DNA of 64,000 bases from Aurantiochytrium sp. KH105 (lineage: Eukaryota; Sar; Bigyra; Thraustochytrida; Thraustochytriidae), in the NCBI GenBank assembly GCA_003116975.1, contig BGKB01000017.1, positions 620,001 through 684,000 of the forward strand, read 5' to 3'. Shown piece after piece: positions 2,646-50,000 of the stretch. The notes beneath the pieces are model-generated. The model made no database searches, was not told the DNA's origin, and was given only the letters and a program-made list of their open reading frames with translations. The position numbers and the translations under genes were made by a program. How positions within the stretch are numbered: the stretch's first letter is position 1; each line of letters opens with the position of its first letter.

Positions 2646-4070
2646 ATGCCGCGACTTTCTGTGCGCAAGTCCAAGGACAAGCTCGAGGCGGGCGCCAACG
2701 CGGCCAAGGCGGTATGGGCCTCGGGCCTCGCGGTCTCGTCGACCACGGTGGCCGCCTTCGAAGAGGGCGACCAAGGCGGACTGAAGGACCTGCTCGACGC
2801 TCTGGACTACACGCGCGCAGAGGACCCCGAGGCCACCGTGCCCAAGCGATGGGTCGAGTACTGCGGTGGCGACGAGAACAAGGCGCGACGACGCTGGCGC
2901 GCCATGGCGACATACAGAGAGGCCCACGCCATGGACGATATGCTGCGGCGTGAGCAAAAGGAGTTTTTCCGCATCAAGAAGTTGTATCCTCAATTCTGGC
3001 TCGGTCAAGATGCTCAGGGCAATCTCGTCACGCTCGAGCTCCTGCGCGACACTCGCGAGATTGTCTCCTTGCTGCGGCGCTCCGGCATCTCTGCTGAACG
3101 CTTCGCGCGCCATCAAAGCTTTCTCACAGAGTACTGGATCCATCAGAACCTTTCACGCACTGGGCAAATGGTGCGCATTATCGACGTCCAGGACACGCCC
3201 ATTCTCGCCCAATCGCTCGGTAGCGTGCGCCAGTACTTTGGGGCGACAAGTATTGCCATGTACCACTACCCAGGTCTGACGGCCAAAATCTACTTTGTCA
3301 ACGTCTCGCGAGCCTTTCGCATCATCTGGTCTCTGATGGCCAACTTTCTCGACGAGCGCACACGCGAGTCCGTGCATTTGCTCAACTCGCCACTCGAACT
3401 GCCCGAGGACCTCATGCCCGACGTTTTCATGGGCGAGCTCTCGCGCGATCTTGAACACGTAGGTATCGAGTCAACCCTGAGTCGCTTTGTGCGACGCATC
3501 AATGCCCAACATGCTTCACCTCAGTCGGTCATGCCGGGCGGTAGCGCAGACGACCACGAGCCTGCCGTGCTCTACGACAAGGATAGTTTCCTTGCCGCCT
3601 TGCCGGGCTCATGGACCGAAATCAGCATTGAAAGTGAGTCTCTCGACCCGGTCATGCGCGCTGCCGGAGTCTCGTACTTGAGTCGGACAGCCTTTTCGAT
3701 GGTCAGCTTCTCCGAGACAATCACGGTGGACGGCGCGAAAGTGACGGTTAATGCATGGGCAGGTCCCATGTCCAGGATGCTTTCGGGTAATTATGATGGC
3801 ACCTTTGAGGAAAGTGATGATGAAGACGACAAAGTACCCGATCCAGAGGTGCGTCTCGATCTTGTCGAGCGTCCCGTTTTCCTCGTGGACTCTGCGTGCA
3901 CGCCTTGCCTGCGTTTCACTTGCAAGTTCTCCAATGGTGATGTCCTTACCATCCATCATGGCATTCACCGCTTCTCCAAGGACAAAAAGGTTACCAACAT
4001 CAAGTACAAGCCTCGGTTTGGAGATAGCGCACCAAGCTGCTTGCTTGTGATGCGCAAGACGTCCAAATAG
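2646..4070 (+). CDS. CRAL-TRIO (Sec14-like) protein with FABP-like C-terminal domain
   Basis: A 474-residue intronless protein. Residues about 55-290 read as a Sec14-type module: a basic helical N-terminal part (V-P-K-R-W-V-E-Y-C), then the lipid-exchange core with YPGLTAKIYFVNVSRAF and a following WSLMANFLDERT helix, matching the conserved 'P-x-x-x-x-x-x-x-N-x-P-x-x-F' zone of the family. Sec14 proteins exchange phosphatidylinositol or other hydrophobic ligands between membranes. Residues about 318-474 start with L-P-G-S-W, contain D-P-V-M-R-A-A-G-V and F-S-E-T-I-T-V-D-G, and end in a beta-rich stretch with N-G-D-V-L-T. This order resembles the ten-strand fatty-acid-binding-protein barrel. 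The acidic stretch at about 395-403 interrupts it. The frame is open upstream to 2409 without an ATG, so the first ATG was used. The Sec14 call is solid; the FABP-like call is inference. Confidence 0.8.
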   Translation: MPRLSVRKSKDKLEAGANAAKAVWASGLAVSSTTVAAFEEGDQGGLKDLLDALDYTRAEDPEATVPKRWVEYCGGDENKARRRWRAMATYREAHAMDDMLRREQKEFFRIKKLYPQFWLGQDAQGNLVTLELLRDTREIVSLLRRSGISAERFARHQSFLTEYWIHQNLSRTGQMVRIIDVQDTPILAQSLGSVRQYFGATSIAMYHYPGLTAKIYFVNVSRAFRIIWSLMANFLDERTRESVHLLNSPLELPEDLMPDVFMGELSRDLEHVGIESTLSRFVRRINAQHASPQSVMPGGSADDHEPAVLYDKDSFLAALPGSWTEISIESESLDPVMRAAGVSYLSRTAFSMVSFSETITVDGAKVTVNAWAGPMSRMLSGNYDGTFEESDDEDDKVPDPEVRLDLVERPVFLVDSACTPCLRFTCKFSNGDVLTIHHGIHRFSKDKKVTNIKYKPRFGDSAPSCLLVMRKTSK

Positions 4071-4611
4071 TCTTATCTCACCTCTTTTGAATAGTAGACA
4101 CGCTGGATAGATAATTGGTGAAAATCTTACGCGAACCCTGAATTCCTTGCTCGAAATGACTGTTCACTTTTCTGGACTTTCTGTAAGAAGAAAAAGTCCT
4201 TTTCTCCCTTGTAGGATGTTTGTTGTTGCTGGAGTTTCGGAGCTTGAGTGGCGCGTGCAGGATGCTCTCGCAAAGCTGTGCGTCTGAAAGTGAGTTTCGG
4301 CGGCCACAAATGACAAATGAATTGAAAGCCCAAAACAAAACGAAAACAAATACTCCAGCACGCGCTCGGGCGCGCGGAGTTGCTACAACGAGCTGCTGCG
4401 TTGAGCTCTGGCTGACTTTGGCCCCGTCGTCAAACGACCAGCTCGGTTTTCGGATAGAGATCTAAGCAGAGCCTTGGAACTTTTCGAAATCGAATTCGAT
4501 TTGGTCTGTATTATTATTCCTCCTCTGTTCGCCGTGGTCAAGACTTGGAGACATACCATCCATCGACTCAAAAACTAAATGTGAAAATGATTTAGCCTTC
4601 TAGTTCTTCTC
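4071..4611. other. Convergent intergenic region, no gene seen
   Basis: This stretch lies between the 3' ends of the CRAL-TRIO gene (+) and ATG4 (-). It is more A/T-rich than the flanking genes and has only short, unconvincing frames on both strands. It presumably holds the two 3' UTRs; no tRNA or other RNA gene was recognised. Confidence 0.5.
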
Positions 4612-6273
4612 TTACAACAAAACGAACTCGTCGCCGCCATCAGAGCCCTCAGACGCCGTCTCCATGCCTGCATCATCGTCGTCTTCGGCATCATCCTCAT
4701 TCGTAGTGATCGCGTCAGCTTGGGCATTGGCGCGCGCTGCTGCATTTGCATTCAGTCTGCTGGCTTGCCGCGGAGGCTTGGGCCGTGTGGCCTCGGCGCG
4801 ACATTTTGCCGACGCCGTGGCGAACATACCAGCGCTGCCATCATTGTCGTCGTCGTCGTCATCATCATCATCAAGGTCTCCATAGGAGGGCCGAGACTCT
4901 GCAAAGGAAACAAAAGGCAGCCCAAACGTGTGAAATTGACCAACGCGGGCCACCAGATCAGCGAGTTCTTCTGGCGAATTCACGTAAAACCCCACTGCCA
5001 AAGACGGATCGATGGCCCGCGCGGGAATCACCCGAGGTGACGCGCAGTGGTACGTGTTGACAGTGTCCTGATAAGGAAAGAATTCGTCGTCGCACTCTTG
5101 CTCGTTGGCGGCGACCTGGACAGTATGTGGGTCCAGATACAAGAGATCCTGCCCCTGAGAGCCAATAAAGTACAGGGAGTGCGCAGGACGGCCGCCAATC
5201 ATGCCCACGCATTGCGGCAGCTTGAGCGTCTCGATGAGGGGCGCAATGTAATCATGATTGATAGTGTGTAGTCCCAAACGAACCGGGACAATTAGAAAAA
5301 GCGCCGAAGTCCACTGCGGCGCCCGTCTCGGGTGGAGCATGGGGTCGTCCAACGACGGCACGCTCTTCCTTTGGCCTATGGGCGTGGCGCTTTGCTTTTG
5401 AGAATCCTCCTCACCGTCACTGGTAGCATCAGCATCCGCAGTAGCGGTCTGACCACTCGATGGATCATCGAGCTTTTTCTCACAGAGACCGCGAAGCTCT
5501 TCAAGGTAGATTGCCCCATCGTCGGAAATGTATACAGAAATGTCCTGGCGCGAGGACATGGAGCGAAGGGACTGAAAGTCGCGGTCCAGGATGCTTGTAG
5601 CAGGCGCGTTGCTCTTGGCAGAGGCTCGAAGGCTGTGCGAGCTGACAAGCTCACGCAGCACGAGGGCCACCGTATTGGGGCCGTACCATTCTCCCGGTTT
5701 TTTTCCAAATTGTCTACCGCATTCGGTCATACGATGAATCGAGTAAAACGCAAAGTACTTGGGAGCGTCGACGAACCAGCGCAACAGGTTACGATGAGCG
5801 TTTGAAGCGGGACAATGACGGCCGTATTCCTCGCGACCCAGATGCCGCACCAAGGTTTCAGCAAGCATCATTTGCGCACTGCGCAGCATGCATCCCCACC
5901 CACTATCCGAGGTGAAGGACGAGGGTGGCTTCATCGGGAGGAAGCCGCGTCTGTAAGTCATCCACACGACGGCCCGGAATGCAGCGAGAAACTGTGCCCA
6001 TTCGTCGCCGTTCTGGCCCGAGGTCGAACGCGTGCCCTCCTCGTTCTTCGCATGAATTCCAACTTCGAGTTCGTCCTCCTCGGTTTCCCCGCCTGCTCCG
6101 GTTTTGCTATCGTGGACGTGCGTCTGAGCGGTCTCTGTCTCTGTCTCTGCAGCAGCTGCGGCAGCTGCGGCGGCGGCGGCAGCAGCGGCGAGGTCGAAGC
6201 TGCGGCCGAAGAGGAAGACCGGGTCGGCGTCCTCGCCGGTCGCGGGCGCCCTGCCCAGCTGCGCGCCCAGCAT
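4612..6273 (-). CDS. ATG4: Cysteine protease ATG4 (autophagy)
   Basis: ATG4 is a C54 cysteine protease that trims the C-terminus of ATG8/LC3 to expose glycine and later removes ATG8 from phosphatidylethanolamine. Counting from the ATG at 6273 (553 residues), D-P-V-F-L-F-G-R matches the family N-terminus. It is followed by a poly-Ala tract, then MTYRRGFLPMKP and TSDSGWGCMLRSAQM with nucleophile Cys130. The catalytic Asp/His are D383 and H385 in Y-L-D-P-H-T-V-Q. The C-terminus is a long acidic tail ending E-F-V-L-L, which fits an ATG8-interacting (LIR) motif as at the end of human ATG4B. The same frame stays open upstream to 6567 without an ATG, so an unseen upstream exon or a longer N-terminus is possible. 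SYS1 starts divergently 570 bp away. Confidence 0.9.
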   Translation of the reverse strand: MLGAQLGRAPATGEDADPVFLFGRSFDLAAAAAAAAAAAAAAETETETAQTHVHDSKTGAGGETEEDELEVGIHAKNEEGTRSTSGQNGDEWAQFLAAFRAVVWMTYRRGFLPMKPPSSFTSDSGWGCMLRSAQMMLAETLVRHLGREEYGRHCPASNAHRNLLRWFVDAPKYFAFYSIHRMTECGRQFGKKPGEWYGPNTVALVLRELVSSHSLRASAKSNAPATSILDRDFQSLRSMSSRQDISVYISDDGAIYLEELRGLCEKKLDDPSSGQTATADADATSDGEEDSQKQSATPIGQRKSVPSLDDPMLHPRRAPQWTSALFLIVPVRLGLHTINHDYIAPLIETLKLPQCVGMIGGRPAHSLYFIGSQGQDLLYLDPHTVQVAANEQECDDEFFPYQDTVNTYHCASPRVIPARAIDPSLAVGFYVNSPEELADLVARVGQFHTFGLPFVSFAESRPSYGDLDDDDDDDDDNDGSAGMFATASAKCRAEATRPKPPRQASRLNANAAARANAQADAITTNEDDAEDDDDAGMETASEGSDGGDEFVLL

Positions 6274-6843
6274 GCTCGCGAGCCCTTCCACGGTCTGCCG
6301 GGCGCGGAGCAGGCCTTCGTACACCCACGCCTGGCCCAGCGACACGACCGGCGCCGCGCCGGCGCCGCGCTCCCGCGGCCAGATGGTGCCGGCTCCGCGC
6401 TGCGCGCGCGAGACCCCCAGCAAGGAAATTGCTTCTCCGTTTGATCTCCTTCTCCCTCCCTCTCTGCCGCGGCCGAAACCGCCCGGCGAGCGGTTTCGCG
6501 CCGCCGCGTAACCGACGCGGAGGCCGCGTCTCTCTTTCTCTGTCTCAGGCTGTCTCGATCGATAGAATCACCAAATCAAATCCGAGCCCGCGGACCTCGA
6601 GCTCTGCGTCGCGCGCGGCGGCAGAGCGGGCTGGCGGGGCGGGGCGTCGCGCGCGGCGCGTCGCGGCGGGCGGGAGCTGCCGCGAGCGGGCCTCAGGCGC
6701 GAGCCGGCCGGCGAGGGCTGCTCGCGGCCGCGACGGAGACGAGCGAGCCGAGCCGAGCCGAGCGGCGCCGCGCCTGCTTGCGCGCGGGACGTTGAGGAGC
6801 CCGCGCGGCGCGAGCGCGTGCAGCGCGTTCGCGCGCGCGCGCG
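6274..6843. promoter_or_regulatory. Bidirectional promoter between ATG4 and SYS1
   Basis: 570 bp, very GC-rich with CGAGC/GCGCG repeats in the SYS1-proximal half and a C/T-rich run at 6445-6465 and 6529-6545. It must contain both transcription starts; no discrete element could be assigned. The ATG4 frame remains open through most of it. Confidence 0.4.
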
Positions 6844-7677
6844 ATGCCGTTCTATGGCTCGCAGGAGTGGGACCCGAAGCTGATCGTGGCGCAAATTGTC
6901 GCGATCCAGGTGCGTTGCGCGGCGGGACAAGAGGGCGCGCCCTGAGAGTTGCACTTGCTGACGTGGTGCGAAACAAATGTGTAGTGCCTCTCGTACACAA
7001 CACTGGGGATGCTGCTTGGCATGTTCCACGCCATCTTTGGTACCGAGCTCACGCTCGAGCAGGTAAGTTTGTGCTGTCGCTCGTGGCCGAAGATCTGCTC
7101 TGGCTCACAAGCACTGGCATGAGCGCAGTTCTTTGGGTACCGCGCCGTTGATGCAGGTGCGCCGACAGGATGGGTCATTATCCTCTCGACGCTCTTCAAC
7201 GCAGTTGTCAGGTACGTTTGGCCAAAAGCACCAAGGACAACAAGTGGAAGAAATAAAGAGAGAGATAAATTCGTCATTTATGGAAATGGGGAAAGTCCTT
7301 GCTGACGCTCGACGCTCTCACGTTTGAGACTTGCTATGTGCAGCGCGGGTTTTCTCTCCATCATTGTCGAGAGGGCGAAGAAATGTCTCGACTTTGCCTT
7401 TACGAATCACCTGCTTCATCTCATATTCTGCACCATGTACGAGGGCTTTCCATCAAATTGGGAATGGTGGGTGCTCGATGTCGCGTCCATGATTGTTCTT
7501 GCTGTTGTCGGTACGTTGAAGAGAATTTCTCGATTCCAATGCCTTCTTTTCAAATAGGACTAACGAATTGGCGATGTGTCTTTACCCACAGGCGAGTATT
7601 TGTGCATGAGAAGAGAGCTTCGCGAGATTCGCATCAGCGACTTTCTCAGCGCGAGAAACCCATCATCGACCGTCTGA
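6844..7677 (+). CDS. SYS1: SYS1 homologue, Golgi integral membrane protein (five exons)
   Basis: Spliced from 6844-6909, 6985-7062, 7129-7211, 7344-7510 and 7592-7677, giving 159 residues; human SYS1 has 156. All introns are GT-AG (donors GTGCGT, GTAAGT, GTACGT, GTACGT). The protein begins MPFYGSQEWDPKLIVAQIV, matching the SYS1 start W-D-P-x-L-I-x-x-Q-I-V. It continues with L-S-Y-T-T-L-G in the first helix region, then E-R-A-K-K-C-L-D-F and W-E-W-W-V-L-D in the third exon block. It ends A-V-V-G-E-Y-L-C-M-R-R-E-L-R-E-I, the same ending as animal SYS1. Four membrane helices are expected. SYS1 recruits the Arf-like GTPase ARFRP1/Arl3 to trans-Golgi membranes. No single open frame covers it, so an ORF caller would miss it. 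Confidence 0.93.
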
Positions 7678-7934
7678 CGCCGCGTTCGTTGAATCGAACT
7701 GACTCCAAACGTAGTGAAATTTTATTCCTGAAGCGCTCCTGGAAGCCTGATGAAAACATTTATTTCATTTCACATCGGTTCGTATTTCCACACCACCTCG
7801 GCAGACTCTCAATAGTTTCCTGCGCGTGCTCTTGTGAATTTAAGCAACGCGTTTACATGGCTAGCTAGCAGATTCAGCCCTCCATGTTGACGTTTTGTCA
7901 GTCCAGCTTGGCGTGGTCGTCTTGGGCTTGTGCA

Positions 7935-8655
7935 TTATACTGGTTGACTCTTGGACGCAAATGAATACACATTGCGTCCTTGCCTGTGCATGGTGAGCGG
8001 TGCTGAAGCCCCGGCAAAGAGACTGGCTACACCGGTGACAATCATGATGATGCAAAGACCGAAAATTAGCATACGTGGCTTGTGGGTGGTGTCAACATTC
8101 TTTTTTTTTCGCGTTCCATAGCGTCGTCAGAAACACAAGACCTTTCGGCACCAAAACTTGCACCTCTGCAGAGCACGGAAACTCACCCTCTCGTCAAGGA
8201 TCTGTGAAGTATCGGTGACATACGTTGTCATCGAGAAAAATAGTGTTGGAATGATGATCAGGACCACCGCTCCGATTCTAAATTGATTTGGCGCTCGTTG
8301 CATGTGAGAAAATTTGAAAGATATGAAGCTCTGAGCTTGCTACGTACCTCATGCCGCGTCTCGGCCCTGGCTTATCAATAAAGCTGCAAGCGAGTGGTAT
8401 AAAAGGTTAGAGTGCGATTTTCTTGATCTCGTTGCAACAAAGCCCACGCTGACGTACCTCGAAAAGAAACATAATAAGATGACCGCTGCAAGCACGCAGA
8501 TGACAAAGAATGACGCTGGTCCGAGGTTCCCTATACGTGCATCCTCCGAGGTGATGCTGCGATCGGAAGGTGTACGTGTCAGTTCTCTCCTGCTTTCCCC
8601 TTCTTCGCAATGTCGAAGCAACTTACGCCTCGAGGCGCCGCAAACTCTGCGTCAT
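7935..8655 (-). CDS. Small three-helix membrane protein, possibly TMEM218-like (five exons)
   Basis: Spliced on the minus strand from 8627-8655, 8458-8556, 8348-8383 (36 nt), 8187-8277 and 7935-8078; donors are GTAAGT, GTACGT, GTACGT and GTGAGT. The 132-residue product starts MTQSLRRLEAITSEDARIG. It has three hydrophobic helices: FFVICVLAAVILLCFF, then GAVVLIIIPTLFFS, then MLIFGLCIIMIVTGVASLF, with a short basic link S-F-I-D-K-P-G-P-R-R between the first two. Frame continuity and helix spacing across four introns support the model. Length, three-helix layout and the L-L-C-x-x-S-R after helix 1 are reminiscent of TMEM218, a ciliary transition-zone protein, but similarity is weak and I recall the family only in outline. 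Otherwise it is a hypothetical membrane protein. Confidence 0.7.
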
Positions 8656-9983
8656 GGTGGTTGTTGTAGAGGTTTTCTGAGTTTTAGTTCGTGACGCGCG
8701 CGGGACGCGCACTCCCGCGAAGCTCCGCGTCTCGTTGTGAGTCCCACTTTGTATGGACAACGACCAATGCCTTTGGTGATCCTCACGCGAACGGCACTGC
8801 GCAGCCATCGAGGCCACTAGCCCGGTGGACTTGGACTTTTTTTTTTTTTTTTTCAACGGTCATTTTTTTGGTCTGTCTCTCTGAAAAGAACATGAAGAGC
8901 TGTTGTTGGGTATGCACAAAGAGGACAAATGCCATGTGACCAGCCCAAGCGCACAACGCAAAAGTGAAGTTCAAGTGTTGATTGAGAAGAGTTCGCAAAA
9001 TATCAGGACAATATTTGTATGGGAGGCACGGCCTACTACGAGCCGTGCTGACCATACGAGTAGGCCCTACGTGACATCAGAACCTTCAAATCCGTAATTC
9101 TTTTTGAAAGGAGGAAATGGGCACGGGAGCCAAGGTGGAAGGCGAGAGTTTGTATCTCTTAGGCTAAGGTCTGAAATAACTGTACACGTGTCTCCAGACA
9201 ACTTCGGGCAAGCACGATTCGAATTCACGCACAAAGCAAATCGAGCGAGCGTGTTCAGTAAGGCCGAGCGATTTGAGCAAGTACATGCACTTTCACTTTG
9301 CTTTGTTCGTATCGGCAACAAGTTTACATTACCGTATGCGCAACGTTTGAGTGACGTCAAGCAGAATCACTTCTCGTAAAATGGGGTAAAAGGAGCCTTA
9401 ACATCTGGATGCATCCTCACTGTCAATCGTCCAACTCGTTTCAAAAGTAAACAGATCCAAGCCAAGGAACTGTATTGCCGGCTACTGCGCCGCAAGAGAC
9501 TCTGCTCTGCGCAAACGTGAAGGAACTCACAGAGCAGATTGTGCAACCCTTCAGTTTTCGATATTTCCAAGGTCGGTCAGTTCTACGCTTGCGCCATGGC
9601 GCCCAGTGTCAATCAACAAGCTGCGAGGCACATGCATATCCCTTTCCATCGTCAATGAACCCATCCTCAAGATTAACTTTTGAGCGGACAACGCGTTGTC
9701 TCGCTATATTCATGTTGTCGGCTGCGAACGGCCGTGAGTAATAAAGAAGCTAGTTGACTACGAGAGGCTGCGCCTTGGGTTGGGCATCAAACCCGCCACT
9801 ACGCGAGAGAGCCGCGGCGGACGGAGCTCGAGGCGTTGCCGAGCGGAGGCCCGCTCGGCAGCTTTGCAGCGCGACCGCAACGCGGGACAAACGATCGGTC
9901 CCGCGCGCGACACAGACCTGTGCGCTTGGCGGTCTCGCGTGCGGAACGGCCGGGCGAAACGAACAGGAAGGAAAACAAGAGCC
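8656..9983. other. Intergenic region, no protein gene supported
   Basis: 1.3 kb upstream of the minus-strand membrane gene and of the plus-strand gene at 9984. It is A/T-richer than the genes, with a T(18) run at 8838-8855. Open frames on both strands are short and have no recognisable domain. The notable feature is the long hairpin at 9012-9062. The last 240 bp are GC-rich and probably the promoter/5' UTR of the next gene. Confidence 0.4.
9012..9062 (+). other. Strong two-part hairpin, possible structured RNA
   Basis: The arms 9012-9022 and 9052-9062 pair over 11 positions including two G-T wobbles. After a symmetric 3x3 internal loop (GAG against TGA), 9026-9032 (GCACGGC) pairs perfectly with 9042-9048 (GCCGTGC) around a 9-nt loop. 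That makes 18 stacked pairs in 51 nt in a region without a supported protein gene. No known RNA family is recognised. Confidence 0.45.
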
Positions 9984-18777: not shown

Positions 18778-21528
18778 TTACTTGCTTGTGGCGTCCAGCG
18801 TGTTGGACAAAGGAGCGCTCTCCATGGAACGATACAGGAGCTGATCCTTTTCGGAAATGGACGGCCGGATCGAGTTCATGGCCTTTTCGAAATCATCCGC
18901 GTTCACGCGCGTCTGGCGCGACGCTTGCACAGCATCTCCAGCATCGACCATCATTGCTTCACCGGCATCTGCGTCCTCGCTCGCCTTCTTTTGAGATTCC
19001 TCAATACGAATGCGGCGCAAGGCGTTCATTGCGGCCTCCTTGACGAGCGCATTAAGATCCGCGCCCGAAAATCGCTCAAGACGAGGGGAGCAACCGACGC
19101 TTTCGAGGTCCACTGACCCATCCATGGGTGTTTTGCGAGCACACGTCTTGAGAATCGAAACACGATCCTTCGAGGTCGGCAGCGGCACGTACAAGAGCTT
19201 GTCGAGACGTCCTGGACGTAGAATGGCCGGATCGATAATGTCAGGGCGATTGGTGGCCGCAATCACAAAGACTTCGCGCCGCTCCTCGAGGCCGTCCATT
19301 TCAGTGAGCAGCTGATTCACCACGCGCTCGCTGACGCCATTGCTGCCATCTGATCCGCGGCGCGGGCACAGCGCATCCAATTCATCGAAAAAGACAACGC
19401 AAGGCGCCGACGTACGCGCCCGCGCAAAGACTTGACGGACTGCGCGCTCAGACTCACCAACGTACTTGTTGAGAAGCTCGGGACCTTTGACGGAGATGAA
19501 ATTGGAGCCGCTGCTATTTGCAATTGCTTTGGCGGTCAGGGTTTTACCACATCCAGGTGGGCCATAGAGAAGGACACCCATTGGTGCGGTCAAACCCATA
19601 GCACGGAAACGCTCGGGATGCCGAATAGGCTCGGTAATGGCCATGCTGAGCTCCTCTCGAATCTGTATCATTGCATGCATGAATTTCCGTCAGTTTTCTC
19701 GATTTCTTTCTTGCGCACTGTCTCAAAGGAGACAGCAACAACGATCACGCCCGTTTTTTTTTAAGATTGTTCACACGGGCCTTGCGCACGAAGAGGGTCT
19801 CTCGTGCTCAGAATGAGTAGGAGGTAATTTTAGTTTCACGGCATGTCAAACGACTGTTTATAGTCATCATCACAGCACGCGACCTCTCTTCGTGACGCAT
19901 GGCATCGCACACAATCTCCCTCCCTCTCTCCCTTTCTTTCCATCTCCTGTAAATGGACAGATTAAACTTACATCACCCAGGGATCCAATATCATCCCAAG
20001 TAACCGATGGAACGGTGGCAAATCCTTCGCGCTTTGCGCTCGGCTGAACCTTCCCGACGGCTTCAAGAAAGTCTGACATTTGTACAAACACAGGCTCCAG
20101 TTGGTCCGGAGAAAACGGCTCGCGCATCTGGTCCACGGAGCCAATCTCAGTCTTGTCAGATCCGAGCGAGTGAAAGACACGATTAACTGCAAGCACAGCT
20201 GCCTCTTTACACAGGGCGTCGAGATCGGCACCCACAAATCCCGGTGTGAGACGAGCCACCTCCTCGAAATCAAAGTCGCCCGCAAGTCGCATTCGCGACG
20301 ACAAGCACTGCAAAATCTTTGCACGGGCAGGTGTATCAGGGATGCCCATTGCAATCTCTCGGTCAAACCTCCCCGCGCGTCGCAATGCTGGGTCCAGCGC
20401 GTCAGGTCGATTTGTTGCTCCAATCACTAGTACAGCCCCGCTGCTCGTTCTATCAGCCGCACGGCCCTCTTTCGTCTCGCTGGCGACTGCGTTGGGGTCG
20501 AGATCCTCGTCATCGGCCTCAACCTCCCGTCGGAGCGAGTCCATGCAAGTCAGCAGCTGGGCAACGATGCGTCGCTCCATGCCGCGGCTGCTCGACTCGC
20601 GCTTGCCAGTGATTGCATCAATCTCATCAATAAAAATGATCGCGGGCGCGTTGACGCGCGCAGCATCGAAAAGGCCACGCAACTTTTGCTCGCTCTCTCC
20701 GCTCATACCGCTCACAATCTCTGGTGCCGAAATGGAGTAAAAGGCAACATCCAGCTCACCGGCAATGGCGCGCGCAAGCATCGTCTTTCCCGAACCCGGG
20801 GGTCCGTGCAGCAACACGCCTCGCGGAGGGTCAACGCCGAGGTGCTCGTATAGCTCTGGGTGCACGAGCGGGTATGCGCAGAGCTCGCGAATGTCTTTGA
20901 TACACGAGTCAATTCCGCCCATATCCTTGAAACGCACTCCCGGCCGCTGCGCCTGGACCCCAAAGCCATCGCCAGCAGGCGGGACCGGCAATTGGCCAGG
21001 CTTGGGCATAGCTCGCTTGCGCGACTTGGCCTTAACTGGCTGTCGATCTTGCTCCTGAGCTTGCTGTCGCTGCTGAGCCTGTTCGAGGCGGGTCTTCTTA
21101 CGTTGCGCCGCGTACAAGCCGCCATTGAGCATGTTATGCTTGTCCTCGGTGTCGCCGTCGGCGTCGTTGTCGCTGTCGTCAGACTCGCTATCTCCGCCGG
21201 CGGGCGATGCCGGCCGGCTCGAGGCCTGCCTTCGCTCGATGATGAGCGCGCTGAGCAGCTGGCGCACGCCCTTTTCCGACTTGCGCGCATACTCGCGGTG
21301 CTTTTGCAGCAGCAGCTCGTAGGCGCGCTCCGAGGTGAGCTTGGGCGCGCCGTCTTCTTCAGCGCCGACCTCGGCGCCGTCCAGGAGCGCGTGCACGCGG
21401 TTCACCAGCAGCGTGTCGCCGCGCAAGGGGCCCGCGCCCGTGCCCGCGGGCCGCCTCCGCTTCTTGCCCATCGTGCCGCGCGGATGGTTGGCCGTCGCGA
21501 GCTTGGGTGTTTGCTCAGATTTGATCAT
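18778..21528 (-). CDS. NVL: NVL / Rix7-type AAA ATPase, 60S ribosome biogenesis (two exons)
   Basis: Exon 1 is 19972-21528, the intron is 19663-19971 (309 nt, GTAAGT...ACAG, phase 0) and exon 2 is 18778-19662; 813 residues (human NVL 856). The N-terminus has a basic nuclear-type stretch (M-G-K-K-R-R-R-P from residue 20, an alternative start). There are two AAA modules. D1 has [16 protein letters not shown] and the [10 protein letters not shown] sensor region. D2 has [23 protein letters not shown] and [10 protein letters not shown]. Splicing joins W-D-D-I-G-S-L-G-D to I-R-E-E-L-S-M-A-I, exactly the NVL/CDC48 D2 entry. NVL/Rix7 strips assembly factors from pre-60S particles in the nucleolus. 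A GATT microsatellite lies in its upstream region. Confidence 0.93.
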
Positions 21529-21708
21529 CGATTGTCATTTTTGATAAGAGGTCAGGCAGGCAATGAATGGGTGGCTTTGCGTAGTTTGGCTGCAATTCTG
21601 TCCCTTCTACTACCACTGGCAGTCTGGTTTAGCTCGACGCCACGATGGGTGGACGCGAGGGCGGTATCATCATGGCAACGGAGGTCCGGGCCAGTTGATC
21701 AATTGCCA

Positions 21709-21902
<194 letters not shown>

Positions 21903-21997
21903 GGACGTTGCCGTGAATGATGGAGAGAACAAACTCCGTGGAAAATTATGTGCAGAATTGGTCAGTGTTCAGCAAGCCGAGCCAATCTATAATCAAG

Positions 21998-24649
21998 TCA
22001 TTCAATGTAAAAGGACCAGAAGCGACGAGTTGAGGAGCGCGAGTTTTTCGGGCGCGATAGGCCTGAAATGAGATCGTCCTCGGAAATAGGAACGTTGTTG
22101 AAATCGACACCATGTGCGACCCAATGACGGAGAAGATCCGGGAGACTCCATTGACGGCCACGAAAAATAACGGGTTCGTCGACTTTCTGACCAAAGAGGT
22201 CGCGCAAACTCCGGCGCAGCGAAACGCCACGAGCCTCTGGGATCTCTTCCCAGCGAATTTCGGCCGCAACAGACTCGCGGCGAAAACGCTGCCACTCTGG
22301 CCACGTTTCTAAGAACGCATCGACTTGCTCCTCACTAATGGCAAGCGCCTGCTGACGAGCAGCGTCGATTTCGCGATCCTTGATTTCCATGAACTTGGGA
22401 AAGTGCATGGCCAGCGCAGACACGGGCAGGTCGAGGTCCTCGAGCAAAGCAATCTCGAAACGTAAATACACGCATACGTCGTCGACAAAGCCGAGCGAAT
22501 TGCACTTGGCCATGGCATGCTCGTGCACGACCTGGAGATTCATCACTCGGCGCGCAAGAGCCCGGAGCCTCGATTCGCTTCCGCGCGCGCGCGCAGTCTC
22601 TACGAGCAACTGCATTTGGTTCAAAGCCCAAATTGGTTTGTCATCGCAAGCATCAGTGCTATCGACCATGCGGAGAATGACCTCCTCGCGCGCCACCTCG
22701 TCACTGACGAGGATCCCAAGGACCTCGAGAACTCGCATGGCGAGTCGGGGGCGCATCTCGGCCAAGAGAAATTCCTTTGCACCTCGCAGGCGCGAGAGAA
22801 AGACGAGCACGCCACGTTTGCTTGCATCGTCTACCACATCGTTGACATCTTCGGCTGTAAAGTCGGGAGACACCGGGTCGCCGTGCTCGTCCGCCGCATA
22901 CGTGCTCCAGAACGCGACGGCCTGTGCAAAACTCTCAAATGGCGGCACGTCCACCGTCTCTTCGTTCTGGCGATTGGCGCGCAACGAGACGTGGAACCGC
23001 AAAAACGGGGCCTCCACGTTGCGCAGCCACTCGAGGGCCGAAACTCCGAGCCCAGAGCTGCCAAGGTAGACTTCGTGGGGCTCGCCATCCTCGCGGGCTT
23101 GCCAACCGAGCATTTCTGTAGGAAGCGAATCGAGGGCCTCACACCTCTCAAGGTACACGTCGCCTCCCACGACAAGATCGGCCGGAAGGCTCGTCAGATT
23201 GACGCACGAATTGCAATTGAGATCACGCTCAACCACCAGCGTCTGCGGGAGCTCCTCGATGGAGCGTAGCGCGCTGCAATCCAAATTCCCATGGACGATG
23301 AGACGGCGTCCGAGAGTGCGGAGGCCCCGCAAACCGCCGCACTTGAGGTCTCCGCCGACCTCGAGAACTTCGGGCAAGGCGTGCACGCCGGTCGACTGCC
23401 GGAGTGTCAAGTCTCCAGCGACTGCAATCTTGTCCGGGAGACCCTGGAGTGACTTGCAGCTTGAGAGGTCCAGATTGCCGCCAACCTCCACCGTGTCAGG
23501 CAAGTGGGCCAGAGAGGAGCACCATTGAAAGTTGCAGTCGCCCTGCACTCGCAGCGCCACGGGAATTTCGACAAGGGCCGGGCACTTGCGGCAGTCCACC
23601 TCGGCAAAGCCTTCCGAAGCATACGGTAGCTTACGAAGCGCACACGCGGGAGTGACAATGTCGGGAAGCGTCCGCTGAAAGGAGGGCTCGGCACCGAATG
23701 GTCGAGCTGCTCGCACAGCGGCTTCGAGACCGACTTGTGCAATGCTGGAGCCTCGCGTTCTCGCGGCGATATCGTCCTGCTCTGCTTCAAGATCCTCGGC
23801 GACGGCAGCGCTGGCAGCGGCGGCGGCGGACCCGGGCGCCGCGTGCGGGATTTCGCTCAGCGTGCTGCGACGCCGGGCGGTGATTTGGTACCAGCGTCTG
23901 TCCGAAAGGGCCTGTGCTCGCTTGACGGTGTCGACGCCGGCCCAGAGGAGATTCTCCCACGACGCGCGAGGCCGCGCATGGCGCAGCTCGTTGCGCAGAT
24001 GGAGGAGCGCGTCCGTGGACCATTTCCCAGGCTGGAGCTCGAAGCCTTCGCCAAGAGAATTGAGTCGCGGGCAAAGATCGACGATGAGGCTGCCCTCGAT
24101 GCGCGTGTTGTCGGGAAGCTTGATGAGCATCGGGCAATCACGCAGGAAGAGCGCCACATCGCGCAGAAGGAGCGGCGGGAGGTTCGTATCCGTGACCTTT
24201 GTGAGCCGCAGCACCCTGGCGCGGGGCTCCTGGTTGGCGGCCGCGGCCCGCACCTCGCTGCGCAGGTTCGGCTCGACGACGAGCCGGCCGTCCTCGTCGA
24301 CGCTGAGCGCGAAGCGGCTCAGCTCCTTGACGATCTCGCTGTTGTCGATCCCGCGCACGACCTCCTGGGTGCGCTCGTCCCAGTCGTCGGAGGCGCGGTG
24401 CGCGACGATCTCCTCGTCCCCGTCCTCCGCGTTCTCCCCGATCGCCCTCGCCAGCTCCTCGCGCAGCTCCTCGCGCTCGCGCCGGACCCGCTGCGCGCGC
24501 AGCACGGGCGTCAGCATGTTGAGCAGCGACCTCGACCGCTCCGCGACGTGCCGCCGCCTCGACGCGCGCGCCGCCGCGGGGGGCGCCTCCGGGGCCTCCT
24601 CGCCCTCGCCCCGCGCGGCCGCGCCGCCCTCGGCCCCGCCGCGCGCCAT
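21998..24649 (-). CDS. LRR protein with NEL (IpaH/SspH-type) E3 ubiquitin ligase domain
   Basis: 883 residues, intronless. Residues 1-330 are a charged helical region with an Arg-rich start. About 340-515 is a run of 20-23-residue LRRs of the bacterial 'L-P-x-x-L-x-V-G-G-D-L-x-L-x-x-C' type. About 560-800 matches the novel E3 ligase domain of Shigella IpaH, Salmonella SspH/SlrP and Pseudomonas relatives. It has a helical lead-in (A-V-A-F-W-S-T-Y), the catalytic C-x-D as C668-D-D670 in D-A-C-D-D-K-P followed by A-L-N-Q-M-Q-L-L-V, then F-V-D-D-V-C-V-Y-L, L-D-L-P-V-S-A-L-A-M-H-F and F-L-E-T-W-P-E-W-Q. NEL enzymes take ubiquitin on the Cys and are held inactive by their LRR. Residues 800-883 are an extra tail. 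There is no signal peptide; flanking genes are eukaryotic. Activity and substrate are inference. Confidence 0.85.
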   Translation of the reverse strand: MARGGAEGGAAARGEGEEAPEAPPAAARASRRRHVAERSRSLLNMLTPVLRAQRVRREREELREELARAIGENAEDGDEEIVAHRASDDWDERTQEVVRGIDNSEIVKELSRFALSVDEDGRLVVEPNLRSEVRAAAANQEPRARVLRLTKVTDTNLPPLLLRDVALFLRDCPMLIKLPDNTRIEGSLIVDLCPRLNSLGEGFELQPGKWSTDALLHLRNELRHARPRASWENLLWAGVDTVKRAQALSDRRWYQITARRRSTLSEIPHAAPGSAAAAASAAVAEDLEAEQDDIAARTRGSSIAQVGLEAAVRAARPFGAEPSFQRTLPDIVTPACALRKLPYASEGFAEVDCRKCPALVEIPVALRVQGDCNFQWCSSLAHLPDTVEVGGNLDLSSCKSLQGLPDKIAVAGDLTLRQSTGVHALPEVLEVGGDLKCGGLRGLRTLGRRLIVHGNLDCSALRSIEELPQTLVVERDLNCNSCVNLTSLPADLVVGGDVYLERCEALDSLPTEMLGWQAREDGEPHEVYLGSSGLGVSALEWLRNVEAPFLRFHVSLRANRQNEETVDVPPFESFAQAVAFWSTYAADEHGDPVSPDFTAEDVNDVVDDASKRGVLVFLSRLRGAKEFLLAEMRPRLAMRVLEVLGILVSDEVAREEVILRMVDSTDACDDKPIWALNQMQLLVETARARGSESRLRALARRVMNLQVVHEHAMAKCNSLGFVDDVCVYLRFEIALLEDLDLPVSALAMHFPKFMEIKDREIDAARQQALAISEEQVDAFLETWPEWQRFRRESVAAEIRWEEIPEARGVSLRRSLRDLFGQKVDEPVIFRGRQWSLPDLLRHWVAHGVDFNNVPISEDDLISGLSRPKNSRSSTRRFWSFYIE

Positions 24650-25580
24650 GCTATGCTATCCTCCGCCGCGCAGCTGCTCCTCGCGAGCGAGCGCCGGGGC
24701 GCGACGGGTCTGCCGCACGTGCCGCTCGCGGCGCTGCGCTGCGGCGCACACCCTAGCCTCGACGCGGCGACGCCTCGGCGGGGCTCGTCGCGCTCGACTC
24801 TGCTCTGCTCTGCTCTGCTCTGCTCCGCTCTGCTCGGCTCGGCTCGGCTCGGCTCGGCTCTGCGCGCCGGGCGCGGCCGCGCGGTGCGCGCGAGAGAGAG
24901 GGCTGGAGCGAGGTGTCCTGGCTGGGACCCGGGACGATCGAGCGCAGCAGTTGGATGATGATGGCTTGGAAATATCTTCTCCTCGCTTGCCGCTCCGCCC
25001 GCCGGCACGCGCCGCGAGAACGGCCCCGCGCGCCACGCCGCGGAGCGCCGCGCCGCGCCGCGCCGCGCCTCGCCACGCCGCACGCGTCTGCCTCTCCGCC
25101 CGCCCGAGGCTTGGCTCTCTCGCCGAGGTCCGCCGTTGGGTCTTTGCACGCGCTGCTGCTGCATTCACAGTGTCACTCACTCATTCACTCACTTCATTCA
25201 CTCACAGTCATTCCCCGCCTCAGGCTGGCTGCGTCGCGCGGGAGTCCAGTAGTATGCCTCGTACCCACCTCTATCTACCCCGTCTCGCCGCGCGATCACG
25301 CGGAGAACTGCCGCACCGGCTCCGGCCAGCGCGTCGGGCCGGCTCCGGGAACGATCGTGACATCGATCGATCCTCCGCAGCGGCAGGCGGCAAGCACAGC
25401 GTGGGAGAATGAAGACAAGATGGAGAGCGCGATCGATGGCAGATGCAGAGGTCGCGGGGAGGTGAAAGGAAGCGGAGTCGAATCGAGGTAGGCCTATATA
25501 GTTTGTGCGTGGGATCCGGAGCAAGAGACTCCTTCGACATGATGGCGATCATCGTGAACAGGAGAGGAAAGAAATAAAAA
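24650..25580. promoter_or_regulatory. Upstream region of the NEL gene / 3' side of the ABC gene
   Basis: About 0.9 kb, GC-rich. It contains a pentanucleotide run of GCTCT/GCTCG units at 24798-24862 just upstream of the NEL start, GCCGC repeats at 25045-25075, a TCAC/TTCA run at 25172-25206, and one TAGGCCTA palindrome at 25489-25496. No coding frame with a recognisable product lies here. Confidence 0.4.
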
Positions 25581-27611
25581 TTACTTGGCGATGCGCGAGA
25601 TGTCCCATCGGCCCGCCCCGTGGAGGGTGAGCTTGTGAGAGTGGAAAGACTCGATCGTGACGCGATGCCCCACGCTGACATAGGCCTGACAAGACGTTGC
25701 GAGAAGCTGGTGCATGCGTGCCTCGGCGGCCATATCCAGCGCAGAGGTAGCCTCGTCCAGAAAGACGAAGCGAGGCTTGCGCAGGGAAATGCGGCAGAAA
25801 GCGATGCGCTGTTGCTCGCCCACCGAAAGTTCGTCGGACCAACGCAAAACAGTGTCGAGCCCTTCGGGGCAGCGCTCCTCAAGGTGGCTCAGCCCAACGA
25901 CGTGCAACACACGCATCGCTTCAGCATCTCGATGCTGTGGGACCTCGTCCCGTGGCGTCGGGTAAAAGAGCTGCTCGCGCAGGCTCCCGAGCGTCATGTA
26001 CGGCTGTTGCGGAATGAACATGATATCGTCCTTGAACGGCCGGGTAATTGTGCCAGCGGCACCATTCATTGCCAGTCCCTGGATGCAGCGCAACAAGCTC
26101 GTCTTTCCAAATCCGCTGCCTCCGGTGATGAGAAGGCGGTCGGTGCCTTCGAGGACAATATTGAGCCGCGACACGAGCACACGACCTCGATACTGCAAAG
26201 TCACCTCATTGAGCTCAAGCCAGGCATCCGAGGAAGACTGCGGCGTGCGCTCAATGAGCGCGGCGCCACCCTCATAGTCCCCAGCTTCCGCCTTTTCAAG
26301 TTTGTCGAGATGCGAATCCTTCGAGGAGCGCAGCATGCCATGCAGCTGGTCCGTGACGGCTTTGAGGCGCGAAAAGTCGTTAATGTTCTCTGCGAGAATC
26401 ATAAGATGGAAGAGTACCTCGTCAAAGGCCTCCGAGGCCTGAAGCACGGCGGCCAATTGCGAAGATACAGACGTTGGGCTGTCCGTGCTGCCGTTGTCAT
26501 CGCCGTGACTGCACGCGTGGCTGTGGTCATGCGCATGTGCATGCGCATGTGCCGACGCATGGCTATGGCCATGAGAGCTGGCGTGGCTGTGGCCGTGCGC
26601 AGGCAAAAGCGCCTCTGCAGCAGCTTCTGCTGAAGTCGAGCCAGAGACCGAGGAACCAGCCTGCGCGAGCACTAAATAAAAAGGCAAGAGACCTGCCACC
26701 TTGCGAAACGTTGACGAAAACATTTGCACCAGATCGCGCTGTTGACTGCGCTCCCAACCACGACTGAGCTTGGTCAGATGGCGATCTCGCAGCGTTTCAA
26801 CCTCTTGCGCCGCGCCATCGTAAAAAGCAATCGACTCAGCGTTGTCAAGAACCCTCGTGAGAGCGTAACGAAAGTCGTTGGTGGCCTCGCGCTCAAGACG
26901 ATACAGTGAGGGCAGGCTCTTGCCGACAAAGAGTGTCGAGGCGGTCCCGAGAAGTGCAAGACGCTGCGAAGTTGTGGCAAGGCTTCGCGAGGGTCCCGCG
27001 AGCATGCGCGTGAAAAAGTACAAGTGAATCGCCGCTTGCACGGACTCCAAAAGGAGATCGAGACTCAGATTAACGAACTTGTCCACGCCTTCCGCCACGT
27101 GCTGGTCGATGCTCAGTTCGTCATGTCCGTTCTCGGCGAGGTTATGATCCGTGCTGTCCCTGAGGTCCTCGGGCGGGCGCAGTCGGGCGCACGCGAGGTT
27201 TACATAATCGCGAAGGAGACGATTTGTGAGGCAGGTTGACCACGCGGCGCGCAGGCCGCGCAGCACGTGCTCGTAAAAGGCGTCGAGTGGCGAGAGCAAA
27301 AGTAGGAGCCCGAGCTTTCGCGCCAGAGTTGCGCTGAAGCGGTCCGTGCCGGCCGCTGTCAGGACATCTCTTGTCGCGGCCGCTAGAACCGTAGCGGCTT
27401 TGCCTCGTACAATCTGCAGCGCCAGCACAGCTGCGAGACGCAGCCACGCCTCCTTCCTCGGTCGCACGAGGCGATGAGAGGGTTTGCCAGAAAGGCTGCG
27501 ACTCTTGTCTCCGCGCGCTTTCTGCTCCTTGTCCTGGCCTTGTCCTTGGCCTTGCTCCTCCTGCAACCAGAAGAGCCGCGCCACTGCGACCCACCTTGCA
27601 GCCGTCTCCAT
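25581..27611 (-). CDS. ABCD-family half ABC transporter with histidine-rich insert
   Basis: 676 residues from the first ATG (27611). The membrane half (about residues 50-425) carries the ABCD/SbmA-type EAA motif as N-A-E-S-I-A-F-Y-D-G. The nucleotide-binding half has Walker A G-G-S-G-F-G-K-T (497-504), the signature L-S-V-G-E-Q-Q (595-601), Walker B F-V-F-L-D-E with the S-A-L-D D-loop, and the switch His in S-V-G-H-R. ABCD proteins dimerise and move acyl-CoAs into peroxisomes, or cobalamin out of lysosomes (ABCD4); the substrate here is unknown. Residues 339-370 form a striking loop of alternating His (H-G-H-S-H, H-A-H-A-H-A-H-D-H), normally seen in zinc transporters. The frame continues upstream to 27854 without an ATG, so an upstream exon is possible. 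Confidence 0.85.
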   Translation of the reverse strand: METAARWVAVARLFWLQEEQGQGQGQDKEQKARGDKSRSLSGKPSHRLVRPRKEAWLRLAAVLALQIVRGKAATVLAAATRDVLTAAGTDRFSATLARKLGLLLLLSPLDAFYEHVLRGLRAAWSTCLTNRLLRDYVNLACARLRPPEDLRDSTDHNLAENGHDELSIDQHVAEGVDKFVNLSLDLLLESVQAAIHLYFFTRMLAGPSRSLATTSQRLALLGTASTLFVGKSLPSLYRLEREATNDFRYALTRVLDNAESIAFYDGAAQEVETLRDRHLTKLSRGWERSQQRDLVQMFSSTFRKVAGLLPFYLVLAQAGSSVSGSTSAEAAAEALLPAHGHSHASSHGHSHASAHAHAHAHDHSHACSHGDDNGSTDSPTSVSSQLAAVLQASEAFDEVLFHLMILAENINDFSRLKAVTDQLHGMLRSSKDSHLDKLEKAEAGDYEGGAALIERTPQSSSDAWLELNEVTLQYRGRVLVSRLNIVLEGTDRLLITGGSGFGKTSLLRCIQGLAMNGAAGTITRPFKDDIMFIPQQPYMTLGSLREQLFYPTPRDEVPQHRDAEAMRVLHVVGLSHLEERCPEGLDTVLRWSDELSVGEQQRIAFCRISLRKPRFVFLDEATSALDMAAEARMHQLLATSCQAYVSVGHRVTIESFHSHKLTLHGAGRWDISRIAK

Positions 27612-47099: not shown

Positions 47100-50000
47100 T
47101 CAAATTGCCATGGCAAAGAACTCTTCGCCATCGTCTTCATCGTCGTCATCATCGTCGTTGGGACCGTCATCCTCGGAGGTCTCTGAGAAATGCTGGCGAT
47201 TGGCAATGGCGCTCGATTGCGCAGCACTCTGCTTTACGCCGGCAGCCGGTTGCTTTGCTGTTTGACCGCGTCTAGAACGCAAAGAGCCCGGCGCGCCATC
47301 GCGATGACCACGCTCGGCCTTGGCGAGAGACACGTATGGCTCTAAATGGCCAAGGAGCTCGTCGGGAAGCGAGAGCAAAATCTCTTCCACAGGAAGCTTC
47401 TTGCGCGGTGGTTGGCGCGAGTAGCGGTCGTACAAATGCATCTTGACGTCGAGGACATACACTTCGGGACACTTTTGCTCGTCCAGAAAAATGGCCACGT
47501 CATTGATCATACTCTTGAGTGAGCGAGGGGAGAGATTTTCTCTCACGCTCATGCTGTCCTCCTCGTCAACTGCCCCTGACGATGAGAGACCCGGCGTCAG
47601 TGTATCTGGCTGCGCCATCGACGACGAGGCGAGTGCAGAGGAGGAAGAGGAGGCGGATGATGATGATGCACCGGCGCCGCTCTCCGACAAAACGGTGAGG
47701 AGATCGCGCAGCGAATTTACAGCGCGATTTGCCTTGTACAACGCAGTGTCTGGACTGTAAAGAGGAAAAGGACCAAGACCTTCTGCCACAGACGTCTCGG
47801 TAAACACCTTGTCGCCCTTCTCCAAAAAGGTTTCTCGCGCAATCCAGCGCGACTGGAACTCGTGCTGCAAGGCCAACATGCTGCCACCTTGCCATGCAGT
47901 GAACAGAGGATTTGCAAGCACGTCATCAAGATCCTCGTCCGAGGTGAGCATAACACGGGGCGGCTTCCGGGATTGCACAGCGTACAATTCATTGAGCTCC
48001 TTCTGCAATCGACCCGCCAGACCCGGAAGGTTCGCCATCCCGCCGCAAATGAGCACCGTCTCTGATGACGTCGCCGCCACCGACTCGGTGCATCTCTCCA
48101 GGGCCGCCTTGATAATGTGTTGCAAACTTCCGCCATTATAGAACTGGTCGCGGCGCACAAGATCTGGTGAGAAAAGCGCCTCGGGGACATGCGCACGTGC
48201 CTCGCCCACATTCAAAAAGGGAGCGCCACGGCTAACCCTGGGCAAGTAGTCTCCCAAATAGGCTGGCAGACTCTCGGGCGAAACGCAAAACTCCTCGTAC
48301 GAGTTCGCAATTACGCATACGCGATCCTTGACCTCGCGAGCCATCTCCTGTTCGAGAAAGTGTCGCGTCGACGAGAACTGCGCCGGATTCTGAGCCTCAA
48401 ATACAGACTTGAAGTCGTATCCGTCTTGCGTCAGCGATTGCATCATCAGTTCCGTCAGCTGCAAGCCTCCAATGGGCGAGTTGACCACGGCATCCTTGAC
48501 GAGTCTGTTGTTGTAGACGACGCTTGCCGTCGAGCGCGACTCGCCCAAATCCAAAACGACGCAGCTCTTCAGACCCGCCTTGTAAGCAACGAGTGGGGCT
48601 GCCGGCGAAAAGTAAATGGCTGGAGCATTGAATTTCGTCGTCAACATTTGCGCCATGCGCTGGCGCTCGGGGCCACTCCATCGCCGACAGGGTTCGATGA
48701 CCAACACGGGGTGCTGCTCTGACTTGGCTTGCAATACATCCCGGTACATGTGTTCCAAGAGCATTTCCATGTCGTCCCACTCGACGACCTGGGGGTCGAC
48801 AATCGAGTCGATCCCGCGGTGGATCGCCCGTCGGACCATAAAGGTCCCTTCCTCCGTACCTAGACCTGACATCTGGCGCGCACGGTCCCCTGCTCCAGGA
48901 CCGTACGTTGCTTGGCACTGATCGAAAACGTTCCGCCCCGAACACACGGCACGCGGCGCCCGGGAACGGGACTTTGACGCGGCCCCTCCCGGCGCGGGGA
49001 ACGAGTACTTGCCCACGACGCACGGGAGCATCACGGGCGCCTTGCTAAACACATAGCCGCACTTGAGCGAGTCCCAACCGATATCAATCACGATCGGCGC
49101 CTCGAATGGCATCAGCGACCGGACAAGATCCTCAGTGAGACCAACAAGGTGCTGCACCGCGCGTCTCGTCTCCACGGGCCGCGAAGCAGAAAGCTCGCTT
49201 CGACTCACTTGAGAACGTACCTCGTGCAGCAATGCCCAGATCGCCCTCGCGTCCTCCAAGTCCATTGTCACGTTGGCGCGTGCACGACATTGTGCCCATG
49301 CCATCTCTTTGTTGAAGAGCTCGCGGCGATCCATCGCATGCAAGCCTCGCGTTCCCAAGGCGCCCATGTTCGGTGCCGCTGCGACACCGCCCCGCGGTGA
49401 ACCTGCCATACGGCGAAGAATGTTGCGTTCCGGCGAACCGGGAGGAGACGCGCCCTGCGTCCTACCATGACCACCTGCCGAGCTCGGCGAGTTGGTCTCG
49501 GATACGGCGGCAGGGCCTCGAGCCTTGAGCTGCCGAATGGCGCTTGCGAGTTTTCGCAGATGACCCTTTTTCCGGATTCCAACGTCACGGAGATCCGTCT
49601 CTGACATGAGTGTGAGCGTTGCCAGCTCGTCCCAGCCTTCCTCGATGAATGCGTCATAGTACATGGACATGCCCTGCATCGCGAGCCAGGCTTCGACCGT
49701 TTCTGGGGGCGGGGCGACACTGTTGTTGCTACTGCTGTTGGCACTGCTGCTGGCAGTGTTACTGCCGCTGACATTGTTGCTGCCGCTCGTAGCATACGTT
49801 CCCGCAGTCGATGGAGCTGGATTAAAACTGGCTGTCTCGTGACCGAATGTTCCGGACGGTGATGATGTAGGCTCGGATCCGTGCCCGCTTGCGCTGCCGC
49901 CTGCGCCTCGAAATTGTTGTTGTTGCTGCTGCTTTTGGTGCTGTTGTTGAAGGAGAGAGTTAAGAACGAGGTTGTTTTTGATGCTGCGCTTGCGGTTCTC

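Follow-up and report, generated by a model that had tools for sequence, protein, structure and literature searches.

The window analysed here, a 64,000-nucleotide stretch of DNA from the thraustochytrid Aurantiochytrium sp. KH105 (C17:620001-684000; assembly of 76.0 Mb in 367 contigs), carries on its minus strand a single open frame of 883 amino acids (21998-24649, stop included, no internal stops) in which leucine-rich repeats (LRRs) are followed by a NEL domain, the catalytic domain of the ubiquitin ligases (E3s) IpaH, SspH and SlrP, and then by a C-terminal module predicted to be U-box-like. In the passages covered of two accounts (PMC12506513, PMC9320238), NEL ligases are described as bacterial, with a catalytic domain that lacks structural homologues among eukaryotic E3s, and the second of these treats the family as bacterial throughout those passages; a 2014 review (PMC4133400) had already suggested, in the part covered, that enzymes related to NEL ligases might be encoded by eukaryotes.

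A deposited protein of Hondaea fermentalgiana (a thraustochytrid, Labyrinthulomycetes), P0001, is named 'Disease resistance protein RPP5' and is 100% identical to the window protein across the C-terminal 344 residues searched. Its 839-amino-acid model begins at M45 and so leaves out the N-terminal 44 residues encoded at 24518-24649 (minus strand). Because a further relative, P0002 (82% over the C-terminal 344-residue region), has recognisable sequence before the M45 position when compared by eye (HVAEASRTLLQVLGPVLRAQ against HVAERSRSLLNMLTPVLRAQ), the longer start is likelier than M45, and the first 44 residues are probably real coding sequence.

NEL domain, catalytic cysteine and leucine-rich repeats

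The initial annotation, made from the sequence alone, had placed a NEL domain at about residues 560-800, and profile searches bore this out: Pfam NEL (PF14496) matches residues 609-795 (E = 6.1e-21; 75.2 bits against a cut-off of 24; profile positions 24-221 of 223), and, together with a family hidden Markov model (HMM; 602-801), an AlphaFold2 model and structure matches, this match delimits the catalytic domain at residues 602-801 (22247-22846, minus strand). The best matches of the protein in a PDB sequence search are IpaH and SlrP chains, and phmmer aligns Cys668 with the C-x-D cysteine of two IpaH chains and one SlrP chain, in agreement with the cysteine proposed as catalytic (C-D-D670), whose codon lies at exactly 22646-22648 (minus strand); the VYLRF, LDLPV and WPEWQ landmarks were likewise found in the order proposed. 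The C-x-D motif is kept in every row of three alignments: 38 of 38 family rows (22 open reading frames (ORFs) of this genome, alleles included, and 16 database matches), 32 of 32 in a set with bacterial members and 67 of 67 in a wider set in which each of 16 loci of this genome appears once. Around it, most protist-type rows have the catalytic loop C-x-D-K-P-I-W-A-L-N-Q, and bacterial-type rows have C-x-D-R. NCBIfam matches to SlrP, IpaH and SspH2 are weak and far under their cut-offs, and therefore the domain is shared with these proteins but the subfamily is not.

Modelled with AlphaFold2, residues 540-883 resemble SspH2, SspH1, SlrP and IpaH3 and have a predicted all-helical core like that of the NEL fold, as the annotation had anticipated; in the Foldseek search, matches beyond rank 9 are unrelated folds with E >1, apart from one weak IpaH chain at rank 15. 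No HECT or RBR fold occurs among the structure matches of this model, which in itself excludes nothing, and no HECT profile matches the protein: Pfam lists for it only NEL and, under its cut-off, DUF7162 (E = 0.0017).

Ahead of the NEL domain, at about residues 340-540 (23030-23632, minus strand), lie the expected LRRs, which would form the substrate-binding part. They are visible by eye and are matched by PDB LRR chains (residues 339-501 and 362-459); the repeats are divergent, and no Pfam LRR model matches the protein even at E 10.

Native locus, gene family and constraint

That the NEL family is known mainly from bacteria would speak for contamination or misassembly. Against this, the haplotype partner of the window gene lies on contig C36 with both flanking genes in the same order: window 19900-21400, on the side of an AAA ATPase gene, matches C36:323276-324776 (96% DNA identity, 1,501 bases searched), and window 26000-27500, on the side of an ABC transporter gene, matches C36:317133-318636 (97%). 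P0001 was deposited separately, on a 265.7 kb Hondaea contig; 32 stop-free NEL matches are spread over many contigs of the KH105 genome; and the GC content at third codon positions of the window gene (0.735) falls between the extremes (0.56-0.79) for ORFs of at least 250 amino acids in the window, real or not. On the strength of the two haplotype contigs, the Hondaea record and the 32 genome matches, we reject contamination, whose chance we regard as negligible and which had been thought unlikely from the outset; the gene is native to the eukaryotic genome. Its neighbours had been called NVL and ABCD. The first carries Pfam AAA domains (ORFs 18781-19680 and 19873-21528, spanning 18781-21528, minus strand), and the name NVL is the annotation's only; the second is an ABC_membrane_2-type transporter with ABC_membrane_2 and ABC_tran domains (25584-27611, minus strand). 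Pfam domains of eukaryotic kind also occur in other neighbouring ORFs, namely peptidase C54 (which we take to be ATG4), CRAL/TRIO, an impB/mucB/samB polymerase and a protein combining CH, SAM and actin-like domains.

All 32 NEL matches in the genome (31 besides the window gene, alleles included) exceed the Pfam cut-off, and none was found in 14 control genomes. We read the 32 as about 16 loci on two haplotypes, ten allele pairs having been established by alignment and the other six from scores and frame lengths. What precedes the NEL domain varies by locus (LRRs, an ARM match under its cut-off, or SPRY with LRRs), and at one locus (L016 and L020, copies on C94 and C82) NEL stands at the end of frames of 3,539 and 3,546 amino acids, the longest among the 32. 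Transcribed members of the family are known from Thraustochytrium sp. LLF1b (P0007) and from MMETSP (P0012, P0070, P0083 and P0085), none of them being the window gene, and deposited Hondaea proteins already bear the Pfam NEL label under unrelated names. One of these, P0015 ('Tubulin beta chain'), joins NEL to tubulin; we rejected it as a true fusion, and a merged gene model is likely because the 957-amino-acid ORF of this genome (L010) carries only NEL in Pfam. Two adjacent, divergently oriented NEL genes lie in L010 at 3616-6486 (minus strand) and 7214-9856 (plus strand), and the same pair recurs in L009 (haplotypes C31 and C93).

Between haplotypes, the window gene shows 48 synonymous and 6 nonsynonymous differences (nonsynonymous-to-synonymous rate ratio, dN/dS, 0.04); counted as codon differences, these are 29 to 6 in the upstream part and 17 to 0 in the NEL/U-box part. 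Pooled over ten haplotype pairs, codon differences are 371 nonsynonymous to 503 synonymous upstream of NEL and 32 to 135 in the NEL/U-box part (Fisher p 6.8e-9; p <0.05 singly in two of the ten pairs), a contrast that may be inflated because the frames were taken from stop to stop and some upstream codons may be non-coding. Judged from these sequence comparisons, the catalytic end is constrained, and the recognition end seems freer in several paralogues. Fast change upstream of NEL is receptor-like, and would fit a catalytically dead LRR sensor or scaffold that retains the NEL fold without ligase activity; yet the C-x-D motif is invariant in all 67 rows, constraint is stronger in the catalytic part, and we consider such a loss of activity quite improbable. 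The window gene itself is constrained throughout, as would be expected if its substrate in the cell were fixed and no arms race were under way.

The C-terminal module and a proposed mechanism

Behind the NEL core, residues 802-875 (22025-22246, minus strand) form a conserved module that was absent from the initial annotation; residue 802 is the alignment cut point, and the structural match to U-boxes spans 812-875. The module stands in the slot that SspH1 fills with its helical thumb for binding the ubiquitin-conjugating enzyme (E2) and ubiquitin, a thumb consisting of two long antiparallel helices (residues 623-697) in the passages covered of PMC12506513. Several lines of evidence, including family HMMs, suggest a different structure here: hhalign gives a weak but specific match to U-boxes of the same genome (0 of 200 shuffles reach that score), U-box chains rank first when the AlphaFold2 model of the module is searched with Foldseek/VIA, and the predicted secondary structure consists of strands and helices in a U-box-like arrangement, not of a two-helix thumb. 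The tail of the window protein is thus predicted to be U-box-like where the type III-secreted bacterial effectors IpaH, SspH and SlrP have a helical thumb. All 16 loci of this genome carry the module (13 recognised by a protist-only HMM and 3 by a joint HMM), as do relatives including Endozoicomonas and a Rhabdochlamydiaceae symbiont, and it was found in 0 of 77 other NEL rows.

The likeness to a classical U-box, in fold and in function, is less clear-cut. At E 10, the U-box profile PF04564 is listed neither for the window protein nor for 15 proteins of A2 or 10 further ones; by a crude pattern, the loop-2 proline is present in 25 of 32 bacterial-type rows, with F or L in its place in 35 of 49 protist-type rows, and the loop-1 hydrophobic position varies in the protist module (F, L, S, Y, A, K and others); and at one locus (L017/L018) the module is much altered and is missed by the joint HMM. 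These features are what one would expect of an active NEL ligase whose module resembles a U-box in fold only and serves autoinhibition, dimerisation or localisation, the E2 being bound via the NEL core or another site. The presence of the module in 16 of 16 loci, the 17 synonymous to 0 nonsynonymous differences in the NEL/U-box part of the window gene and the position in the slot of a known E2-ubiquitin thumb weigh against a role unrelated to the E2, and we hold this alternative to be possible but doubtful. Compared with the U-box ligases UBE4B, Prp19 and CHIP and the bacterial effectors LubX and NleG (the last as described in the part of its source covered), the tail is alike in predicted fold and differs in lacking a PF04564 match, in its altered loop 2 and in being fused to a cysteine-based ligase core. 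RBR ligases combine a RING-type E2 dock and a catalytic cysteine within one chain, and any likeness to them would be one of logic only, the catalytic domain being unrelated.

From the computed domain parts, predicted fold, catalytic site, native locus and purifying selection we infer ligase activity and E2 docking, and we consider it likely that the window gene is functional and chromosomal and that it belongs to a family of cysteine-based ubiquitin ligases of thraustochytrids. In the mechanism that we propose, the LRRs would select a substrate in the protist's own cell; the U-box-like module, replacing the helical thumb of IpaH and SspH, would dock the ubiquitin-charged E2; and ubiquitin would move by transthiolation to Cys668 and from there to a substrate lysine. 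The second half of the reaction would be IpaH/SspH-like and the first half more like that of a U-box or RBR ligase, and the enzyme may be restrained when substrate is absent, as bacterial NELs are in the passages covered of PMC4133400 and PMC12506513.

Relatives and origin of the family

In an IQ-TREE phylogeny with bacterial and protist homologues (90 rows, 197 columns), 34 thraustochytrid-type rows, 13 of them from this genome, form one clade (100/100; stem 1.35), with the caveat that only the Hondaea proteins and P0007 among them bear thraustochytrid names. Paralogues of this genome are interspersed with those of other sources, which implies that the family multiplied before the lineages split. 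Nearest to the clade are P0027, P0029 and P0045 (99/92), which bear no bacterial organism name; Endozoicomonas, the Rhabdochlamydiaceae symbiont and further relatives form a separate group (100/98); and NELs of other bacteria, such as Pseudomonas, Bradyrhizobium and Klebsiella, are placed farther out in the tree. A bacterial organism name is attached to 10 of the 32 bacterial-type rows (Endozoicomonas, chlamydial and sister), namely P0035, P0040, P0044, P0047, P0051 and L040-L044. The initial annotation had proposed either horizontal transfer or an unnoticed eukaryotic branch, and this interpretation is supported, with the refinement that the gene belongs to an old family of about 16 loci instead of being a single transferred gene.

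The LRR-NEL proteins that databases assign to Endozoicomonas sp. SCSIO W0465 and the Rhabdochlamydiaceae symbiont share with the window protein the NEL domain, a C-terminal module of the same kind and LRR_EndoS-type repeats (sometimes under the cut-off); they differ in being bacterial and presumed effectors, in having C-x-D-R where the protist type has C-x-D-K-P-I-W and in U-box loops that, by eye, are nearer the classical pattern. Most likely, the family would have entered a thraustochytrid ancestor from bacteria of this Endozoicomonas/chlamydial architecture, then multiplied to about 16 loci while its N-terminal parts changed (LRR, ARM-like, SPRY with LRR). Approximately unbiased (AU) tests of the direction of transfer gave p 0.075 and 0.153 and do not settle it. 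Under the reverse direction, LRR-NEL-U-box proteins would have arisen in protists and been captured as effectors by intracellular or symbiotic bacteria, the U-box tail being later lost or replaced in the IpaH/SspH lineage; in its favour, the U-box belongs to the ubiquitin domains of eukaryotes, all 66 rows from groups that bear the U-box lie together on one side of a weakly supported branch (90/52), and Endozoicomonas and a chlamydial symbiont are among the bacterial relatives with names. NEL is nevertheless broad in bacteria, the eukaryote names among the matches listed are those of Hondaea and Thraustochytrium sp. LLF1b and one Durusdinium label, and the stem of the thraustochytrid-type clade is long (1.35), and we regard a eukaryotic origin as unlikely. 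A viral route was also considered: the A2 scan of viral contigs with two patterns gave 52 matches, none of which was confirmed as a relative.

Several database labels in the tree merit separate mention. Five NCBI NEL proteins come from contigs 5.9-11.3 kb long: P0063 carries the label Durusdinium trenchii, and P0060, P0067, P0072 and P0078 are named SspH1, PRP6, IpaH7.8 and SspH1, respectively. They are scattered among thraustochytrid-type paralogues, such that the family tree requires five label changes for them; we suspect thraustochytrid contamination of a dinoflagellate assembly. The NEL domains of L042 (Salinisphaera sp. G21_0) and L041 (Endozoicomonas acroporae) are closely similar (100/100, short end branches) under two different family names, one of which may be wrong, and that of L046 (Mycobacterium sp. 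KBS0706) is nested among rhizobial ones, through either a mislabelled contig or transfer.

Compared with the known NEL family (IpaH, SspH1/2, SlrP, NopM and RipAW), the window protein is encoded by a eukaryotic genome, on both haplotypes and in a family of about 16 loci, some with ARM-like or SPRY partners. Among the open-licence PubMed Central papers listed, we found no account of a NEL with its catalytic cysteine encoded by a eukaryotic host, and none linking NEL with thraustochytrids. The nearest report, PMC7145615, describes algal and plant NLR genes with 'bacteria-like' NEL-type domains, which in the passages covered are a superfamily assignment (ODAL, SSF52075, with LRR motifs) stated to be homologous to NEL; unlike for the window family, those passages contain no catalytic-cysteine test.

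Together, sequence comparison and structural modelling argue that a eukaryotic family of endogenous NEL ligases, distinguished by an unusual, putatively U-box-like tail, is real. More tentatively, and with somewhat less than even confidence, we suggest that it belongs to a distinct ligase branch in which a U-box-type E2 dock feeds the NEL cysteine, a further solution beside HECT and RBR; in thraustochytrids it would serve as a large endogenous family whose recognition parts can be exchanged, Endozoicomonas and the chlamydial symbiont would presumably use the same architecture as effectors, and the U-box-tailed form may be ancestral to the helical-thumb effectors of bacteria of animals and plants. 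Thraustochytrids are marine protists that are used industrially and can be transformed. The occurrence in them of a NEL family with intact catalytic sites, under selection, makes testable what a NEL ligase does inside its own cell and how it is kept in check, whether ubiquitin is received via the U-box-like tail, and the direction in which effector and host genes travelled between marine symbionts and protists.

Other features of the window lie apart from these questions. A long run of GATT-type tetranucleotide repeats (21700-21905, plus strand) separates the AAA ATPase gene from the 3' end of the NEL gene, and the region upstream of the NEL gene (24760-25070) is GC-rich and of low complexity, with CTCTG and GGCTC repeats; long antisense open frames at this stretch (for example, 23742-25409, plus strand) probably reflect composition rather than genes. 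Further along, the frame combining CH, SAM and actin-like domains, an unusual combination, extends over 1473 amino acids (47103-51521, minus strand).
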